From: a virus
Length of the DNA stretch: 35,292 bases
IMG/VR virus record: IMGVR_UViG_3300021960_000009
Coordinates: 1-35,292 of that record
Strand: one strand, 5' to 3'
Below, in pieces: positions 13,905-35,292 of this stretch (the stretch's first letter is position 1; each line of letters starts with the position of its first letter). Position numbers and translations under genes: made by a program. Below the pieces are notes generated by a model. It was given only the letters and a program-made list of their open reading frames with translations. It did no database searches and was not told the DNA's origin.

Positions 13905-14453
13905 ATGAATGCAGTATTTGATAGCAACAATTATCTGATTGTTGATAAATTTATTAGCTTAGAAGAAGCAGAGAGTTTATATAAAGAGTTTGTAGTATTG
14001 CCGAATGTAGATCCTGGGATAAGAGATTTTCAATGCCCATTATCTCATGCGTATTATAATCACAAACCTTTTTTAGTATTATTAAATTATAAGGTAGCAA
14101 TGCTATCTGATCTTTTAAATGAAAAATTATTACCGACTTACTGTTTTGCAAGAGTATACAATCATGGTGAAGAATTAAAGAAACACTCTGATCGACCATC
14201 TTGTGAAATTAGCGTAACATTAAATTTAGGTGGTGATGCTGATTGGGAGATTTATATTACCAAACCTGATGGTGAGTCAGTGGGGGTAAATTTAAAACCT
14301 GGTCAAGCAATGGTATATAAAGGTACAGTAGCAGAACACTGGCGTAATAAGTTTACTGGCAATAAATACGCTCAAGTATTTTTACATTACATTAGAGCGT
14401 ATGGTGAACACGCAGAACATTATTATGACAGAATTGCAACTAGACGTTCTTGA
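13905..14453 (+). CDS. 2-oxoglutarate/Fe(II) oxygenase-like protein
   Basis: A 182-residue double-stranded beta-helix type protein. The iron ligands appear as His94-Ser-Asp96 (LKKHSDRPSCEIS) and His145 (AEHWRN), with a following basic residue and FLHYIRA near 159-165. The N-terminus NYLIVDKFISLEEAESLYKEF is typical of phage oxygenases of this class. Such enzymes hydroxylate proteins, nucleobases or small molecules. The substrate is unknown. It lies between fibre and lysis genes and is followed at once by a second oxygenase of a different subtype, which suggests joint action on one target or on virion or host surface proteins. Confidence 0.78.
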   Translation: MNAVFDSNNYLIVDKFISLEEAESLYKEFVVLPNVDPGIRDFQCPLSHAYYNHKPFLVLLNYKVAMLSDLLNEKLLPTYCFARVYNHGEELKKHSDRPSCEISVTLNLGGDADWEIYITKPDGESVGVNLKPGQAMVYKGTVAEHWRNKFTGNKYAQVFLHYIRAYGEHAEHYYDRIATRRS

Positions 14454-14994
14454 TACTTACATTGTAGTACTAAAAAATATAGTTCCAAAAGAGTTATGCC
14501 AAACTATATTAGATGAGTATAGCAATACTGATGAATGGATTAGTGCTGGCACAGGTTCAGGTGTACGCAAAGAAGCAAGAGCCTGTGATACGATAGAAAT
14601 ATCACAGTTGTATACTATGAATAACAATGCTAATCGATTAAAAATTGACAATGATTTGTTTGAATGTATGGCTAAGTGTATTGCTGAATACAATGGCAAG
14701 TTTCCACATTCAAGAATAGCAGAAGATACTGGATACGAATTATTACGATACAAAAAAGGTGAGTTTTACATACAACATGTAGATTCATTTTTACAAGCAC
14801 CGAGATTAGTGACAGCATCAGTTCATTTAAATGATGACTATGAAGGTGGGGAGTTTACATTTTTTGATAGACGTTTAAAATATAGATTGAATACAGGAGA
14901 TGTGCTAATGTTCCCATCAACATTTATGTATCCGCATGAAGTGATGCCTGTTACATCTGGAACTAGATATTCAATAGTTACATGGTTTAGATAG
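14425..14994 (+). CDS. Prolyl-4-hydroxylase-type 2OG/Fe(II) oxygenase
   Basis: A 189-residue product when started at ATG 14425; an in-frame ATG at 14401 is also possible and neither has a clear Shine-Dalgarno. It has a full facial triad, His118-Val-Asp120 (FYIQHVDSF), His171 (MYPHEVMPV) and the 2OG-binding Arg181 (GTRYSIVTWF), plus GGEFTFFDRR and TGDVLMFPS typical of P4H/PKHD-type hydroxylases. It overlaps the upstream oxygenase in another frame, so the two are coupled. The likely role is hydroxylation of a protein side chain, and the target is unknown. Confidence 0.85.
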   Translation: MTELQLDVLDTYIVVLKNIVPKELCQTILDEYSNTDEWISAGTGSGVRKEARACDTIEISQLYTMNNNANRLKIDNDLFECMAKCIAEYNGKFPHSRIAEDTGYELLRYKKGEFYIQHVDSFLQAPRLVTASVHLNDDYEGGEFTFFDRRLKYRLNTGDVLMFPSTFMYPHEVMPVTSGTRYSIVTWFR

Positions 14995-15797: not shown

Positions 15798-16502
15798 ATG
15801 AATTATAAATCAGTCTTGGTGATTTCGGATTTACATATTCCTTATCACCATCCAGATGCTTTTGAGTTTCTCAAGGCACTGAAGAAAAAGTATAAACCAG
15901 ATCTTGTTGTAAACATCGGTGATGAGATAGATCAGCACGCTATTTCTTTTCATAACCATCACCCAGATCTCAAGTCACCAGGTGATGAATTGCGAGCGGC
16001 TCGTGTATATTGCCAAGAGCTGCAGAAAATTTTTCCTGAGATGACTATCGTTCATTCCAATCACTCTTCATTAGTCTACCGTCGAGCTGTAGCTCATGGT
16101 TTAAGTTTAGAATATCTTAAATCTTACAATGAATTCTTACAAGTTCATGAAGGATGGCAATGGGTAGATGACCTCAAAGTAACCTTGTCTGATGATCAAC
16201 GCTGCTTCTTTACACATGGCATGTCTGCTGATGTAATGAAAGTAGCTCAGCAATATGGTATGAATACAGTACAAGGCCACTATCATTCTAAGTTCAAAAT
16301 TGAATATTATTCCAATCCTGATAAGTTAGTCTGGGGCATGCAAGTCGGATGCCTAATCAACCAGAAGGAACTAGCATTTGAATATGCTAAGAACTTCAAG
16401 TCTCGGTTCGTCGTAGGATGTGGCATGATCCTTGATGGGCAACCTAAACTCATGCCTATGGTATTAAAGGATGGTGGATCATGGATTCAGAAGATAGTTT
16501 AG
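15798..16502 (+). CDS. Calcineurin-like metallophosphoesterase
   Basis: A 234-residue protein with the full metal-site set: D11-L-H13 (SDLHIPYHH), G41-D42-E-I-D45, N88-H89 (HSNHS), H140 (FFTHG) and G160-H-Y-H163. It is a phosphodiesterase or phosphatase of the calcineurin-like superfamily, and the bimetal core is intact. The substrate may be a nucleotide, nucleic acid end or protein, and the sequence does not decide. It has its own likely promoter just upstream and overlaps the next small gene by 22 bases. Confidence 0.88.
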   Translation: MNYKSVLVISDLHIPYHHPDAFEFLKALKKKYKPDLVVNIGDEIDQHAISFHNHHPDLKSPGDELRAARVYCQELQKIFPEMTIVHSNHSSLVYRRAVAHGLSLEYLKSYNEFLQVHEGWQWVDDLKVTLSDDQRCFFTHGMSADVMKVAQQYGMNTVQGHYHSKFKIEYYSNPDKLVWGMQVGCLINQKELAFEYAKNFKSRFVVGCGMILDGQPKLMPMVLKDGGSWIQKIV

Positions 16503-16799: not shown

Positions 16800-16985
16800 T
16801 TAAAAAGGTGCTTCACCGTACATGTCAATTAAATCGTCGTAATCTAGCCCTGGAATTTCCTCAATGTGGCAATCTGGCTTGTGACGTATAAAATCTTCAG
16901 CTTCTTCCTTAGTTCTAAATGCTTTTAATGTTTCTTGATAACCATCTACAACTACATATTTGAAATTTTCTTGTATCATAATCAT
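16800..16985 (-). CDS. Small hypothetical protein on its own leftward promoter
   Basis: About 61 residues if started at 16985 (MIMIQENFKY), or 59 from 16979. A longer open frame begins at 17030, but that codon lies inside a near-consensus promoter, so I reject it. The product is a short alpha/beta protein (KYVVVDGYQETLKAFRTKEEAEDF) with an acidic end (GLDYDDLIDMYGEAPF). It is transcribed away from pqqA and towards the end of the late block. No strong Shine-Dalgarno is visible. Function unknown. Confidence 0.6.
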   Translation of the reverse strand: MIMIQENFKYVVVDGYQETLKAFRTKEEAEDFIRHKPDCHIEEIPGLDYDDLIDMYGEAPF

Positions 16986-17009
16986 GATTTTACTGATGCT
17001 TAAAAATTT

Positions 17010-17038
17010 AGCATAGGTTATTCTGCTCATAATGTCAA
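17010..17038 (-). promoter_or_regulatory. Strong leftward sigma70 promoter beside pqqA
   Basis: On the minus strand a perfect TTGACA (17033-17038) is 17 bases from TATGCT (17010-17015). Initiation would be near 17003, a short way before the start codon at 16985. This is the best promoter match in the window. It lies immediately upstream of the plus-strand pqqA gene, so the two divergent units share this control region. Confidence 0.75.
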
Positions 17039-17068
17039 TAAGGCAGAAATCATTTTAAGGAGTTCATT

Positions 17069-17140
17069 ATGTGGACAACGCCTGCTGCAACTGAAATGCG
17101 TTTCGGTTTCGAAGTCACGATGTACGTATGCAATAAGTAA
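17069..17140 (+). CDS. pqqA: PqqA, pyrroloquinoline quinone precursor peptide
   Basis: A 23-residue gene starting MWTTPAATEMRFGFEV. It has AAGGAG six bases ahead of its ATG. Its length and layout match cellular PqqA: Trp2, Pro5, the R-x-G-x-E-V-T-x-Y core, with Glu15 and Tyr19 at the exact positions that PqqE crosslinks to build PQQ. From family knowledge, PqqD carries the peptide, PqqE (radical SAM) joins Glu to Tyr, and proteases and PqqB/PqqC finish the cofactor. None of these is in the window, so the host would supply them. It resembles methylotroph PqqA most closely in my recollection. Its C-ending codons (TTC, GTC, TAC, TGC) differ from phage late genes and suggest host origin. It is divergent from the gene at 16800-16985. 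Confidence 0.93.
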   Translation: MWTTPAATEMRFGFEVTMYVCNK

Positions 17141-17144
17141 TTAT

Positions 17145-17180
17145 TGTTGACTAAAAACAACAGGGGGCTCATCGCCCCCC
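17145..17180 (-). terminator. Terminator of the leftward operon, next to pqqA
   Basis: GGGGGC (17163-17168) and GCCCCC (17174-17179) form a GC stem with a five-base loop. Read on the minus strand it is followed by TGTTGTTTTTAG, a U-rich tail, so it should stop leftward transcripts just as the 17169-17507 gene ends; the stem covers that gene's last codons. A small TGTTG/CAACA hairpin lies next to it. It keeps antisense RNA out of pqqA and could also end pqqA transcripts on the plus strand. Confidence 0.75.
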
Positions 17181-17507
17181 TATGTTAATTAAATCATAAG
17201 TTACCATCTTTGTTAACTCTTTCCACTTTTCCTCACCAAGTTGACGTTGGATCTTTAAAGTTAAAGCAGCTTTTGTCCATCCAGTAACTTCCATTGCATA
17301 GTCCCTCATGTTTGTTGAATGCTCATCTGTGTCAAATAACAGCCACTTAAATGCTTCAACTCGGGTATGTAAGGCTTGCTTATTATCACAAACTTCTTGA
17401 ACTGCTTGTAATAATATTTTGCTAATCATACGTCTCATCGGATCATGGTCTTGTGGGCCCTGATGCTCATCAACGTAATGCTTTTTAAAATGTCTAACTA
17501 TGTCCAT
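17169..17507 (-). CDS. Hypothetical early protein, last gene of leftward operon
   Basis: A 112-residue, mainly helical protein (HFKKHYVDEHQGPQDHDP, then ISKILLQAVQEVCDNKQALHTRVEAFKWLL). GGTGAAA lies ahead of the ATG and the gene overlaps the upstream gene by 14 bases. The segment EVTGWTKAALTLKIQRQLGEEKW could be a DNA-binding helix pair, but I do not recognise a family. The terminator stem lies over its stop codon. Confidence 0.72.
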   Translation of the reverse strand: MDIVRHFKKHYVDEHQGPQDHDPMRRMISKILLQAVQEVCDNKQALHTRVEAFKWLLFDTDEHSTNMRDYAMEVTGWTKAALTLKIQRQLGEEKWKELTKMVTYDLINIGGR

Positions 17508-17735: not shown

Positions 17736-18161
17736 TTATGTCTTTTTTATTTCAGACTGTTCCTTCCTGTAAGGTTTCTCAGCGGCTTCACCATCATCAT
17801 CCTCTGGTGCAATACCACATGCGGCCATCAACGAGTAACGCCTTGCATAGGTCAATGCTGATCCATACCCTTGTGGTGTATTTTTATCAGCAGGCAAATG
17901 AAATAAACCACCAGTCATCTGTTCACCAGATTCATGTACGAATACAGTTTCTATTTTGATGCCAGTTTCACACTCATGCGTGCGTTGTATTAATGCAATA
18001 CCATGGTTATGTAGTGCATCAATAACAGCTTCAATACACCCTGATAAGTCCACATAGCTTGATCTAAAATGTGGGTTAGTTGATTTTTTAAGAGCTGGGG
18101 CAAACTCTTTTTGCGCTTCGACAAAAGCCTTAGCAATCCCCAAAGTTTTCTGTGATTCCAT
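17736..18161 (-). CDS. erf: ERF-family single-strand annealing protein
   Basis: A 141-residue protein with the ERF recombinase core: KTLGIAKAFVEAQKEFAPALK at the N-terminus, YVDLSGCIEAVIDALHNHGI, then PQGYGSALTYARRYSLMAA and the acidic GIAPEDDDGE that closes the domain. ERF proteins coat single strands and anneal homologous DNA, replacing RecA or Red beta. It is short for the family and ends soon after the core with a basic tail. GGAG precedes the ATG. The YqaJ-type exonuclease two genes upstream would supply its single strands. Confidence 0.9.
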   Translation of the reverse strand: MESQKTLGIAKAFVEAQKEFAPALKKSTNPHFRSSYVDLSGCIEAVIDALHNHGIALIQRTHECETGIKIETVFVHESGEQMTGGLFHLPADKNTPQGYGSALTYARRYSLMAACGIAPEDDDGEAAEKPYRKEQSEIKKT

Positions 18162-18339: not shown

Positions 18340-18491
18340 GATAAAAGTCCCTCCTTTTCCAGTGCGTCTTTGATGCGTTGTTTAAGAATGTCATCTCGAC
18401 TCATCCACTCCTCTATGTCTTGATCACTGTTGTCTTGCAATACTTTTTGTGCAAGCTGAAATAACACTTGCCTTCTTTTCTTTTCATCCAT
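18336..18491 (-). CDS. 51-residue hypothetical protein
   Basis: A short gene that fills the space between the exonuclease and the next small gene. It overlaps the exonuclease end by eight bases and the following ATG by four. AAGGAT lies upstream. The product is helical and charged (KRRQVLFQLAQKVLQDNSDQDIEEWMSRDD). The double overlap argues that it is translated. Confidence 0.65.
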   Translation of the reverse strand: MDEKKRRQVLFQLAQKVLQDNSDQDIEEWMSRDDILKQRIKDALEKEGLLS

Positions 18492-19437
18492 TGTATTTAA
18501 TCCTTAATTTAGATTGTCTTACTGAGTAGGCAGGCTTAGCAGGAACAAGACGCTCAGCTGTGCCCTTGTAATTCAACATAGGCCAGTAGATTGTATAGTT
18601 GCCTGCTTCGGCTCGCTTACTATCCCTCATACGCTCCATAATCTGAGCTTGTAATTGATCCAGCTCTTCATGTTTTGCTTGTATGTCCTTCTTTAACTCC
18701 ACGATCTGTTCTGCTATCGTTTCCATATCATGTAACTCTATCATTGTATCGCTTGCTTCGTCAAATACTTTGGACGCTTCTTTTGTACTGGTAAAATCAT
18801 ACCACTCAGTTTCTTGATTATCCTTGTACTTTTGTACACGTCGCTCAAAGTCCACAGCAAGATCTGCAATAATCTTTTGCATTTCCTTATCAGCTTGATA
18901 GACAAAGAGTTTTAACATCGTGCCCTTGTAAAGCGTAGCTAAAACGCCCCATTTACAGCCTGTGCACATCATTTGAGCTTGTAATTGCCAAACTCCACGA
19001 TATTCTGATGGTTCATTTTCAACTTCAGCACCTGTAAGCTTGCACTCCAGGCACCCCAATCCATCAAAAACTATTTCATCAGCGTTCATGCAGATAATAT
19101 TCTTATCAATGTCTGTTGATCTAGCCTTGCCATCACCTACAACTGTTGCATCTAAACTCACTGCCAAGGGCAGATTCTTGTGATAGATTGCTTCTTCGTA
19201 GTTTGTTTTTGGGTTGCCTAAACCTAAACGAATGCAGGCTTCCTGGGCTATTGTAGGCTCTAACTTATTGCCCCAATATCCAGGATCACCGATGTCAATT
19301 GACTCAGGTTCGTGCCCTTGTATTGCGTTAAAAGCTTCTTGCAAAAGCTCATTTGCATTCTTCCAGTTGTTTTTGTGCAATAAAACAGGCACGCCCGTGC
19401 CCGTTAATATTGTGTATGGTGTTACTTTTCCTACCAT
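18484..19437 (-). CDS. YqaJ-type PD-(D/E)xK exonuclease
   Basis: A 317-residue protein with the viral recombinase nuclease layout. Glu60 lies in GNKLEPTIAQEAC, Asp96 in LAVSLDATV, and Glu131-Cys-Lys133 in GCLECKLTG, followed by WQLQAQMMCTGC at 150-161, the Gln-bearing helix of this family. The C-terminus carries a long coiled coil (IAEQIVELKKDIQAKHEELDQLQAQIMERMRDSK). It should chew DNA ends to give 3' single strands for the ERF protein downstream. AGGAAGG precedes the ATG. Four copies of TACAAGGGCA on the coding strand lie in this gene and its upstream neighbour. Confidence 0.88.
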   Translation of the reverse strand: MVGKVTPYTILTGTGVPVLLHKNNWKNANELLQEAFNAIQGHEPESIDIGDPGYWGNKLEPTIAQEACIRLGLGNPKTNYEEAIYHKNLPLAVSLDATVVGDGKARSTDIDKNIICMNADEIVFDGLGCLECKLTGAEVENEPSEYRGVWQLQAQMMCTGCKWGVLATLYKGTMLKLFVYQADKEMQKIIADLAVDFERRVQKYKDNQETEWYDFTSTKEASKVFDEASDTMIELHDMETIAEQIVELKKDIQAKHEELDQLQAQIMERMRDSKRAEAGNYTIYWPMLNYKGTAERLVPAKPAYSVRQSKLRIKYNG

Positions 19438-22658: not shown

Positions 22659-22850
22659 TCAAATTTTTGCTAGTTTTTTCAAATTCTGTTTACAGCGTTT
22701 GATACACTCACGTTTTTCTTGCTTATCCATATAAAACCAATGAGACAAATCATCATAAGTACGACCACATCCCACGCATGTTGGAACTTTGTTTAACTCT
22801 ACATACTTACATTGTCCATTGCATGGTGATTCTTGTGGGTTATCTGGCAT
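22659..22850 (-). CDS. DUF1289-type Cys-rich small protein
   Basis: A 63-residue protein with SPCNGQCKYVELNKVPTCVG, a C-x3-C...C-x2-C pattern, then GRTYDDLSHW and a Lys-rich tail. This fits DUF1289, a small family of bacterial proteins thought to bind metal or an iron-sulfur cluster. GAGG lies ahead of its ATG. It converges on the winged-helix gene, which ends 15 bases away. It is more usual in bacterial genomes, so it may be a host-derived gene. Confidence 0.82.
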   Translation of the reverse strand: MPDNPQESPCNGQCKYVELNKVPTCVGCGRTYDDLSHWFYMDKQEKRECIKRCKQNLKKLAKI

Positions 22851-26059: not shown

Positions 26060-26198
26060 TCAGTTACGTGAAGAGTTCGCCATGGCACATCTTAATAATA
26101 CAAGGGTGATGGAGATTATTGATAAGTTGTGGAAAGAGAATCAAGAGCTCAAGCGTATGATGACAATGCAGTTCAAAGACATAGACGATGAGCAATAA
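26037..26198 (+). CDS. Small coiled-coil protein before TerL
   Basis: A 53-residue gene overlapping DUF3310 by 23 bases and TerL by 11. It is one charged coiled coil (QIDQLREEFAMAHLNNTRVM, then EIIDKLWKENQELKRMMTMQ). The double overlap supports translation. It may assist terminase assembly. Confidence 0.62.
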   Translation: MDLKPQIDQLREEFAMAHLNNTRVMEIIDKLWKENQELKRMMTMQFKDIDDEQ

Positions 26199-27744
26199 AA
26201 AAGATCGTAGTCAAAAACAATTATCTGGACCAGGAATAGATTTAGACTTTTCTGGAGCAGCAACAACGTATCATTTTTTGCAAAGCAATGCATTTGTACG
26301 AGGGTTAATGGGTCCAGTAGGATCAGGAAAATCATATGCTTGTGCAGCAGAAATTATGATGAGGGCAGTACGACAAAAGCCATCGCCTGCAGATGGTGTT
26401 CGTTACTCTCGTTTTGTTATTGTACGTAACTCCTATCCTGAATTAAAAACAACAACAATAAAAACTTGGCAAGAGTTATTTCCAGAAAACACTTTCGGTC
26501 CGATGTTATGGACTCCACCAATTACGCATCATATTCGCCTACCCTCCCGAGGTGATGCTGCAGGTATTGATTGTGAAGTCATTTTCTTAGCATTGGACCA
26601 ACCTAAAGATGTTCGCAAACTTCTCTCTTTAGAGCTTACGGGTGCGTGGGTGAATGAAGCTCGTGAGCTACCAAAAGCGGTCATCGATGGGTTGACTCAC
26701 CGTGTAGGTCGTTATCCAACTAAAAAGGATGGCGGCCCAACATGGCATGGAGTTTGGATGGATACTAACCCAATGGATGATGATCATTGGTGGTTTAGAC
26801 TATCTGAGAAAGAACCGATTACAGGTAAGTATGCATGGGACTTTTTTAAACAACCAGGTGGAGTCGTAGAAGTATCCCCTGAAGATTTACCTGATAATCC
26901 TGAAGCAAATGATCACATCTTCTCAGGTGGTCGTTGGTGGAAAATAAATTCAAAAGCAGAGAATGTTAATAATCTACCAGGGGGTTATTATCAACAAATG
27001 CTAGGCGGTAAGAACTTAGATTGGATACGTTGTTATGCTGAAGGTAAATATACTTATGTTCAAGAAGGTCGTCCCGTATGGCCTGAGTATGATGATCATT
27101 TAATGAGTAGTAGCGAAATAGAATATGATCCTACACAACCTTTGCATATTGGATTAGACTTTGGTTTAACTCCAGCTGCTGCTATTGGGCAGCGATTAGC
27201 AAATGGTCGATGGATAGTCTTACATGAGATTGTTACAGAGGATATGGGACTAGAACGCTTTGGTCAACAACTACTAGCAGAAGTCAATGCACATTTTCCT
27301 AAAGCACAAATTATGTGTTGGGGGGATCCAGCAGGTATGCAACGAGATGCTATTTATGAAGTCACGGCATTTGATTACTTACGTACTCTAGGACTTAAAG
27401 CACAACCCACTGCATCAAATAATTTTAAAGTACGACGTGAAGGTGCAGCTGCTCCTATGCAAAGATTGATTGGAGGAAAGCCTGGATTGATTATACATAC
27501 TTCTTGTAAACGTTTACGTAAATCTTTAGCAGGCGGTTATCATTTTAAACGAATTGCTGTCGGTGCTGGACAAGAAAGATTTAAAGATAGTCCAAACAAA
27601 AATGAACACTCACACGTTGGTGATGCATTTGGTTATCTGATGTTAGGTGGTGGTGAACACAAACGCATGACAAAATCACCATTACAACAAAATACTATCG
27701 TTGTACAAACAATAACCAATTCAGAATTTAATGTCTTTGATTGA
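26188..27744 (+). CDS. terL: Terminase large subunit
   Basis: A 518-residue protein with an ATPase and a nuclease domain. Walker A is GPVGSGKS at residues 42-49. A Walker B-like segment is LTGAWVNEARELP near 150-162, with the preceding VIFLALDQPKDVRKL typical of the group. The RNase H-like nuclease has HIGLDFGLTPAA near 315, MCWGDPAGMQRD and, at the end, HSHVGDAFGYLML. Length fits T7-like TerL of marine podoviruses. It packages the DNA together with the small subunit and portal. Confidence 0.94.
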   Translation: MSNKKDRSQKQLSGPGIDLDFSGAATTYHFLQSNAFVRGLMGPVGSGKSYACAAEIMMRAVRQKPSPADGVRYSRFVIVRNSYPELKTTTIKTWQELFPENTFGPMLWTPPITHHIRLPSRGDAAGIDCEVIFLALDQPKDVRKLLSLELTGAWVNEARELPKAVIDGLTHRVGRYPTKKDGGPTWHGVWMDTNPMDDDHWWFRLSEKEPITGKYAWDFFKQPGGVVEVSPEDLPDNPEANDHIFSGGRWWKINSKAENVNNLPGGYYQQMLGGKNLDWIRCYAEGKYTYVQEGRPVWPEYDDHLMSSSEIEYDPTQPLHIGLDFGLTPAAAIGQRLANGRWIVLHEIVTEDMGLERFGQQLLAEVNAHFPKAQIMCWGDPAGMQRDAIYEVTAFDYLRTLGLKAQPTASNNFKVRREGAAAPMQRLIGGKPGLIIHTSCKRLRKSLAGGYHFKRIAVGAGQERFKDSPNKNEHSHVGDAFGYLMLGGGEHKRMTKSPLQQNTIVVQTITNSEFNVFD

Positions 27745-34952: not shown

Positions 34953-35234
34953 ATGGCTTATAATAAAGACAATTTACAACCTATTGGTGGTCAAGCCAAA
35001 GCTGGTAATGCTCCACAGATGTGGTCATATACCGCTCCTGGAACTGACACACTTGCTGACATTAATACAGCTGGTTATTTCAATGACGCACACTCAGTAT
35101 TAAAAGTGGGCGACTTAGTATACTTATGGGACTCATCTGTTCCTACAGCATCTTTAGTCGTTGTACTTTCTAATGCTTCTGGTGTTGTTGACGTATCAGA
35201 TGGTACAGCATTATCAGTCGCAGACGCTGACTAA
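34953..35234 (+). CDS. Small head protein after the capsid gene
   Basis: A 93-residue beta-rich protein (MWSYTAPGTDTLADINTAGY, then LKVGDLVYLWDSS and TASLVVVLSNASGVVDVSD). AAGGAG lies ahead of the ATG, 11 bases after the capsid stop. Small proteins of this type follow the capsid gene in many marine podoviruses and may decorate or cement the shell. The last codons lie in the terminal repeat. Confidence 0.75.
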   Translation: MAYNKDNLQPIGGQAKAGNAPQMWSYTAPGTDTLADINTAGYFNDAHSVLKVGDLVYLWDSSVPTASLVVVLSNASGVVDVSDGTALSVADAD

Positions 35235-35292
35235 GTTGTTTATCGCAGATCAGGTAGGTGCTTCGGTGCCTACCTATTTGCACATTTAAAGG
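35212..35292. repeat. Terminal direct repeat, copy 2 (identical to 1-81)
   Basis: Right-end copy of the 81-base repeat. It includes the stop of the small head gene and the UUCG-loop hairpin at 35252-35275. See copy 1 for interpretation. Confidence 0.95.
35252..35275 (+). terminator. UUCG-loop hairpin after the capsid genes (copy 2)
   Basis: The same stem as at 41-64, eighteen bases after the stop of the small head gene. Here its place at the 3' end of the capsid unit is clear, which supports a terminator or message-stabilising role. Confidence 0.6.

Follow-up and report, generated by a model that had tools for sequence, protein, structure and literature searches.

The window analysed here, the whole IMG/VR virus record IMGVR_UViG_3300021960_000009 with a length of 35,292 bases, contains pqqA, the gene for the 23-residue precursor peptide of the cofactor PQQ. 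By its coding sequence and its 3′ flank, this pqqA is a captured host mini-gene of the OM43 type, taken together with its 3′ end. It is quite probable that the captured gene works and keeps PQQ supply and methanol oxidation going during infection, where expression, use by the host PqqE and benefit are the parts that we infer. Comparison with cultured and environmental phages makes us lean towards a broader view, i.e. that nearly all phages of methylotrophic Methylophilales are marked by a free-standing pqqA, repeatedly acquired and missed at its length of 23 codons, and that these phages supply just the consumable substrate, exploiting the dispersed multi-copy mini-genes of their hosts.

Identity of the pqqA gene

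Translation of the plus strand at 17069-17140 yielded MWTTPAATEMRFGFEVTMYVCNK followed by a TAA stop. The codons are ATG TGG ACA ACG CCT GCT GCA ACT GAA ATG CGT TTC GGT TTC GAA GTC ACG ATG TAC GTA TGC AAT AAG TAA, with CGT, GAA and TAC encoding Arg11, Glu15 and Tyr19. Two family models recognised the peptide, Pfam PF08042 with 40.3 bits against a curated cut-off of 21.1 (E 3e-10) and the NCBIfam equivalog model TIGR02107 with 43.6 bits against a cut-off of 20 (E 1.7e-11). A degenerate PqqA DNA pattern matched the window once, at the pqqA locus, and did not match shuffled windows. Glu15 and Tyr19 have three residues between them, i.e. the spacing cross-linked by PqqE, and correspond to Glu16 and Tyr20 of Methylorubrum PqqA (PMC10906245). 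The initial annotation of this DNA had described a complete 23-residue PqqA with Trp2, Pro5, Arg11, Gly13, Glu15, Val16, Thr17 and Tyr19 and a good ribosome binding site; all eight residues were in place, and the ribosome binding site was confirmed as well (Table 1). Judged by its sequence, the gene encodes a genuine and complete PqqA, and its family membership is unambiguous.

Table 1. Features of the pqqA locus and the terminase gene in the window
Feature	Position	Strand	Basis or remark
Phage metallophosphoesterase, left boundary of the accessory region holding pqqA	15798..16502	+	PHROG 221, E 8e-64
Small phage ORF of unknown function, facing away from pqqA	16800..17030	-	Homologue in MEP301
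Possible 5′ leader stem, TTCTGC ... GCAGAA, weak	17021..17048	+	Fold
Shine-Dalgarno sequence AAGGAG, ending six bases before the pqqA ATG	17057..17062	+	Sequence; comparable site before nearly all viral copies
pqqA, 23-residue PQQ precursor peptide MWTTPAATEMRFGFEVTMYVCNK plus stop	17069..17140	+	Translation, PF08042, TIGR02107, Glu/Tyr invariance
3′ flank homologous to the flank of OM43 host solo pqqA (TTATTGTTTACT... plus hairpin)	17141..17200	+	Local alignment
Hairpin GGGGGC-TCATC-GCCCCC, terminator-like on both strands, better T-run on -	17162..17181	.	Terminator scan
Phage ORF of unknown function, converging on pqqA	17169..17507	-	ORF list; MEP301 comparison
Erf-like ssDNA annealing protein, recombination module adjoining pqqA	17736..18161	-	PHROG 2324, E 8e-42
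RecE-like (YqaJ-type) recombination exonuclease	18484..19437	-	PHROG 434, E 1e-25
Terminase large subunit, 86.5% identical to that of methylophage MEP301	26188..27744	+	PHROG 2; assigns lineage and likely host

Genome and locus

The window carries an 81-base terminal direct repeat (positions 1-81 equal 35212-35292) and apparently represents a terminally redundant, podovirus-like genome that is complete as if circularly assembled. A head-tail adaptor and the major head protein were also named by PHROGs. Among the isolates P19250A, Venkman, MEP301, MEP401/402 and Melnitz, only MEP301 matched the window terminase; MEP301 is a phage of OM43, and its host strain is HTCC2181 (PMC8024684). Beyond the methylophages, the nearest relatives of the window phage include pelagiphages (Hodr).

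The pqqA gene lies mid-contig, away from the contig edges, in an accessory stretch bounded by the phosphoesterase on one side and the Erf/exonuclease module on the other, where it is opposed to the neighbouring leftward genes. A promoter-like site at 17038-17010 on the minus strand implies that the real start of the small ORF on the left of pqqA is downstream of its first listed ATG. Further host-like accessory genes of the window encode a 2OG-Fe(II) oxygenase (14401-14994) and a DUF1289 protein (22659-22850). In MEP301, this stretch again contains pqqA, which there lies across a small ORF of weak similarity from its position in the window. When relatives were fetched by their terminase, five of the six with a length of at least 30 kb contained pqqA. 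The 35-kb, near-full-length relative G146 (L357/L358) has an intact phosphoesterase-to-Erf stretch, and pqqA is absent from it despite the same neighbourhood; the gene is therefore not essential in the MEP301-type lineage, and G146 provides a natural comparison for the benefit of pqqA. Within the genomes compared, pqqA is a position-shifting accessory gene kept by most members of the lineage.

A chimeric assembly, which had been named at the outset as a possible source of the gene, is very unlikely. The genome is terminally redundant, pqqA is situated mid-genome with phage genes on both sides, and the same locus recurred in independent IMG/VR contigs, identical in L251/L380 (one contig) and about 95% identical in L252.

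Host genes and origin of the phage copy

All 121 Methylophilaceae genomes searched contained pqqA, with 1-12 copies each; the occurrence of 3-12 copies with a single pqqB-E set had been noted earlier (PMC4109929). A pattern scan of GTDB gave at least 120 matches, whose titles were nearly all Methylophilaceae or Methylophilales, the rest having broader or unassigned MAG names. Three copies are kept in the OM43 genomes, which are streamlined to 1.2-1.4 Mb. In the OM43 strain LSUCC0665, pqqA was found at 52, 875.1 and 875.3 kb. The pqqBCDE cluster, at about 764-768 kb, has no adjoining pqqA, so that the source of PqqA in the hosts, too, is a set of dispersed solo mini-genes. Both database checks suggested in the initial annotation thus had a positive outcome: candidate hosts possess pqqBCDE along with methanol dehydrogenase, and a search of the peptide against Methylophilaceae pqqA genes and phage contigs returned identical OM43 host peptides and many phage copies.

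The solo PqqA of KB13, LSUCC0665 and LSUCC0401 has exactly the amino acid sequence of the window peptide. At the DNA level, 61-62 of 66 bases are shared with the OM43 solo pqqA genes, and the 4-5 differences are all synonymous. The 60 bases past the window stop, terminator included, align with the host flank; the local alignment scores were 38 for LSUCC0401, 34 for KB13 and 30 for LSUCC0665, the 99.9th percentile of shuffled sequences being 29. Similarity to the host gene was not significant in the 80 bases upstream. The near-identity of the coding sequences together with the shared 3′ flank indicates the host origin of the gene. The nearest neighbours of the pqqA copies were viral in 79 cases, host in 19 and tied in 29, at the low resolution that 66-base genes allow, and these counts suggest long residence in phages plus some fresh captures. 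A pqqA copy with a 3′ flank matching those of the viral loci L002 and L062 was also seen on a bacterial-binned contig (L224, MAG Loclat_bin-07551), which is probably a phage contig inside the MAG. As is expected of an auxiliary metabolic gene, pqqA is a host-derived gene in a genuine phage genome and is under selection across phages.

The rest of the pathway in phages

The phage had been said to carry the substrate peptide alone, and this was borne out, as no PqqE over the cut-off was detected in the window record; the same applied to 30 other whole viral records. Genes for pqqB, C, D and E and for methanol dehydrogenase were found in none of 232 viral loci (2.03 Mb). The window phage does not possess a complete PQQ biosynthesis operon. 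Methanol dehydrogenase was absent from 30 of the 31 whole viral records. The sole case was G164 (locus L045, IMGVR_UViG_3300025120_009955, 72 kb), which has pqqA at 718 and, at G164:34049-35731, a gene of the methanol dehydrogenase family that scored above the TIGR03075 cut-off; the Lake Baikal virus discussed below shows this pairing as well.

Occurrence in cultured phages

A six-frame search for the PqqA peptide covered 50,697 phage records. PqqA was found in P19250A, MEP301, Venkman, MEP401, MEP402, four Melnitz phages and one uncultured podovirus. The genes of the cultured methylophages are solo and 23-24 codons long, with a ribosome binding site, and their peptides are 68-96% identical to that of the window. 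At least four methylophage lineages are represented, i.e. the P19250A/Venkman type, the MEP301 type, MEP401/402 and Melnitz. P19250A and Venkman belong to a single genus-level cluster (PMC8163748), the record of MEP402 gives Zobellviridae, and Melnitz, described as T4-like (PMC9004378), has a record that lists Kyanoviridae. The tally of four out of four isolate lineages refers to those in the phage collection; MEP431-434 and EXVC038S, which are present in the taxonomy, lie outside it. Two mis-assigned contigs aside, no phage of another named host among the 50,697 records matched, pelagiphages included. These two contigs, CAKLQF020000010.1 and CAKLQH020000055.1 (L008), are labelled Acinetobacter phage MD-2021a, look like mis-assigned host sequence and were dropped; the one inspected, CAKLQF020000010.1, contains bacterial ppk and a host pqqABCDE operon.

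Most isolate records show no annotated feature at pqqA. In Melnitz and the uncultured podovirus, an opposite-strand hypothetical ORF is annotated over it (L006 2961-3056, Melnitz gene 152, and L007 2067-2195, ctXG6705). These ORFs are probably spurious and the unannotated pqqA the true gene. The pqqA of Melnitz adjoins a tRNA-Leu gene.

Environmental copies and selection

A pattern scan of IMG/VR revealed at least 120 contigs with pqqA, all of them encoding a PqqA of the usual length; in nearly all, the gene is preceded by a clear ribosome binding site. Exactly one copy was present in each of 33 large viral records. Arg11 and Tyr19, which were free in the first pattern, showed no variation in 116 distinct viral coding sequences, while the invariance of Trp2, Pro5, Gly13, Glu15, Val16 and Thr17 in this set was partly forced by the search pattern. 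In a second scan, which left the codons for Glu15 and Tyr19 fully free, Glu and Tyr were kept in 127/127 matches, which argues that the viral copies are maintained as competent PqqE substrates. The pN/pS ratio among the 116 sequences was 0.19, an upper-end estimate since it was obtained from raw Nei-Gojobori proportions with saturated synonymous sites. Arg11 is encoded by AGA in 39 of the 116 viral copies vs 1 of 113 host copies. On these measures, purifying selection acts on viral pqqA and retains the Glu and Tyr that are cross-linked. A more divergent viral PqqA type was observed in L028, L083, L116, L123 and L126 (e.g. WSTPTFKDIRIGFEVTCYILNR) and possibly stems from phages of other PQQ-making bacteria; the DNA of L123 weakly matched that of pelagiphages, of a roseophage and of a gammaproteobacterial phage.

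These data bear on two other explanations of the gene. It is hardly credible that pqqA is useless host cargo, a recent chance capture or an assembly artefact that is still undecayed. The closeness of the window copy to the OM43 gene (61-62/66 bases) and its differing position within the same accessory region among relatives would fit such an origin, but several unrelated phage lineages and at least 120 viral contigs carry pqqA, the low pN/pS is accompanied by invariance of both reactive residues, and the viral copies have codon habits of their own at Arg11; an artefact is further contradicted by the terminal redundancy, the mid-contig position and the independent contigs. We also regard it as very improbable that phage PqqA is a decoy tying up PqqD/PqqE (or their SAM) and thereby lowering or redirecting host PQQ synthesis, e.g. 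sparing resources. Because the affinity between PqqA and PqqD is sub-micromolar (PMC10906245), the complex could become saturated if the peptide were present in large excess. A decoy would, however, not require the reactive Glu and Tyr that are kept in all 127 copies, the window peptide equals the host peptide residue for residue, and the one phage that pairs pqqA with methanol dehydrogenase points to use rather than blockade.

Flanking RNA elements

In 46/109 viral pqqA genes and 106/124 host ones, a terminator-like hairpin was present at most 80 nt past the stop; the control figures were 23/219 for other phage genes that had free space downstream and 16/1090 for shuffles. In the window, this hairpin may shield pqqA from the early genes that oppose it. 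In the viral loci L002-L128 and the host loci L129-L248, the 60 bases before pqqA were noticed to contain short inverted repeats that vary in sequence. Placed after a TATAAT-like box and ahead of the ribosome binding site, they are commoner than before other phage genes and may act as an operator or as a 5′ stem that stabilises the mRNA. The leader hairpins, first spotted by eye, had a mean z of 0.96 in viral, 0.77 in host and 0.45 in control leaders, with p values for enrichment over the control leaders of 4e-4 (viral) and 2e-3 (host). A conserved 5′ leader hairpin is not put forward as a defined element, as this signal is modest and the stem in the window leader was not significant by itself (per-sequence p 0.36). 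A search just upstream of the window pqqA found no convincing sigma-70 promoter, which counts against the role proposed below.

Proposed role in infection

It is known that PqqE, to which PqqD presents PqqA, links Glu to Tyr and that a protease, PqqB and PqqC then complete PQQ (PMC10906245). For pqqA to sustain PQQ supply, the phage would transcribe it during infection as its own short mRNA, host PqqD and PqqE would accept the 23-residue phage peptide and cross-link Glu15 to Tyr19, and the host protease, PqqB and PqqC would finish PQQ from it. One PqqA is spent on each PQQ, while the catalysts PqqB-E are not consumed and would persist after host gene expression falls. If it does fall during infection, PqqA would be exhausted before the other components, a shortage for which a phage gene of 23 codons would be a cheap remedy. 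We propose that the phage carries pqqA alone because PqqA is the sole pathway component that is consumed. Continued PQQ for newly made methanol dehydrogenase (XoxF) would then maintain energy and carbon flow during phage production. The xoxF transcript is the most abundant one in OM43 and may turn over fast (PMC5120137); fast turnover of xoxF would create a demand for new PQQ.

Several points weigh against such a need. In Acetobacter, raising pqqAB alone increased PQQ by 29%, whereas overexpression of the whole pqqABCDE led to an eight-fold PQQ level (PMC7936290). The difference between the two indicates that PqqA need not be limiting. The host also already has three pqqA genes, which argues against the need for a phage copy. 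The main weakness of the proposal is that mature methanol dehydrogenase binds PQQ tightly, so that a short infection may need little new PQQ. A related explanation, that PQQ synthesis is supported and the benefit lies elsewhere than in methanol oxidation in the infected cell, e.g. in an antioxidant effect, in other PQQ enzymes or in a long carrier or pseudolysogenic state, appears unlikely to us. Some hosts may possess further PQQ-dependent enzymes besides XoxF, as suggested by weaker matches in G004 and G006, but LSUCC0665 and KB13 each have a single full PQQ alcohol dehydrogenase and, among phages with known hosts, pqqA tracks methylotroph hosts.

We thus retain PQQ supply for methanol oxidation as the preferred role. 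As to the initial interpretation of an auxiliary gene for PQQ supply, a real PqqA, a methylophage, the lack of the rest of the pathway and purifying selection were all upheld, and its functional part is what we infer. OM43 and its relatives are important methanol oxidisers of coastal and fresh waters and act via XoxF, which needs PQQ. If nearly all of their phages carry pqqA, PQQ supply would be a bottleneck in infection and viruses would share in methanol turnover.

Comparison with known systems

The initial annotation could not tell whether pqqA had been described in phages before. It had: a viral pqqA was reported in 2020 in VP_266 from Lake Baikal, a predicted Methylophilaceae virus, with a proposed PQQ boost for methanol oxidation, and methanol dehydrogenase is encoded in VP_266 and also in VP_139 (PMC7678222). 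VP_266 resembles the window phage in carrying PqqA in a predicted Methylophilaceae virus and in the functional idea; it differs in being T4-like and in encoding methanol dehydrogenase, whereas the window phage is of the small MEP301 type and has pqqA alone. A survey of reservoir sediment likewise counts pqqA among viral genes (PMC13188868). As a phage gene, pqqA goes unmentioned in the papers that describe MEP301, MEP401/402, Melnitz and Venkman (PMC8024684, PMC9004378, PMC8163748), and the near-universality of pqqA in methylophages seems to be unreported. Beyond the known viral pqqA, the present analysis adds how broadly the gene occurs in methylophages, that it stands alone, that its residues are conserved and that it was captured as a host mini-gene.

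The pqqA genes of P19250A, Venkman, MEP301, MEP401, MEP402 and Melnitz share with that of the window the solo form of 23-24 codons with a ribosome binding site, but have other genomic sites and peptides that differ from it. The solo pqqA of the OM43 strains KB13, LSUCC0665 and LSUCC0401 has the identical peptide, a ribosome binding site, an adjacent terminator and a homologous 3′ flank; the host genes are chromosomal with several copies per genome, whereas the phage has one copy with 4-5 synonymous changes. Standard gene calling misses this auxiliary gene of 23 codons even in well-studied isolates, so that other genes for consumed peptides may be hidden likewise. A solo PqqA of the form WTxPxxTEMRFGFEVTMYV in a viral contig is a simple and specific pointer to a methylotroph host.

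A functional parallel is provided by cyanophage auxiliary genes such as psbA, with which the phage supplies the fastest-consumed component of host type and sustains energy metabolism. The psbA product is a protein subunit, whereas pqqA encodes the peptide precursor of a cofactor, from which the phage may benefit.
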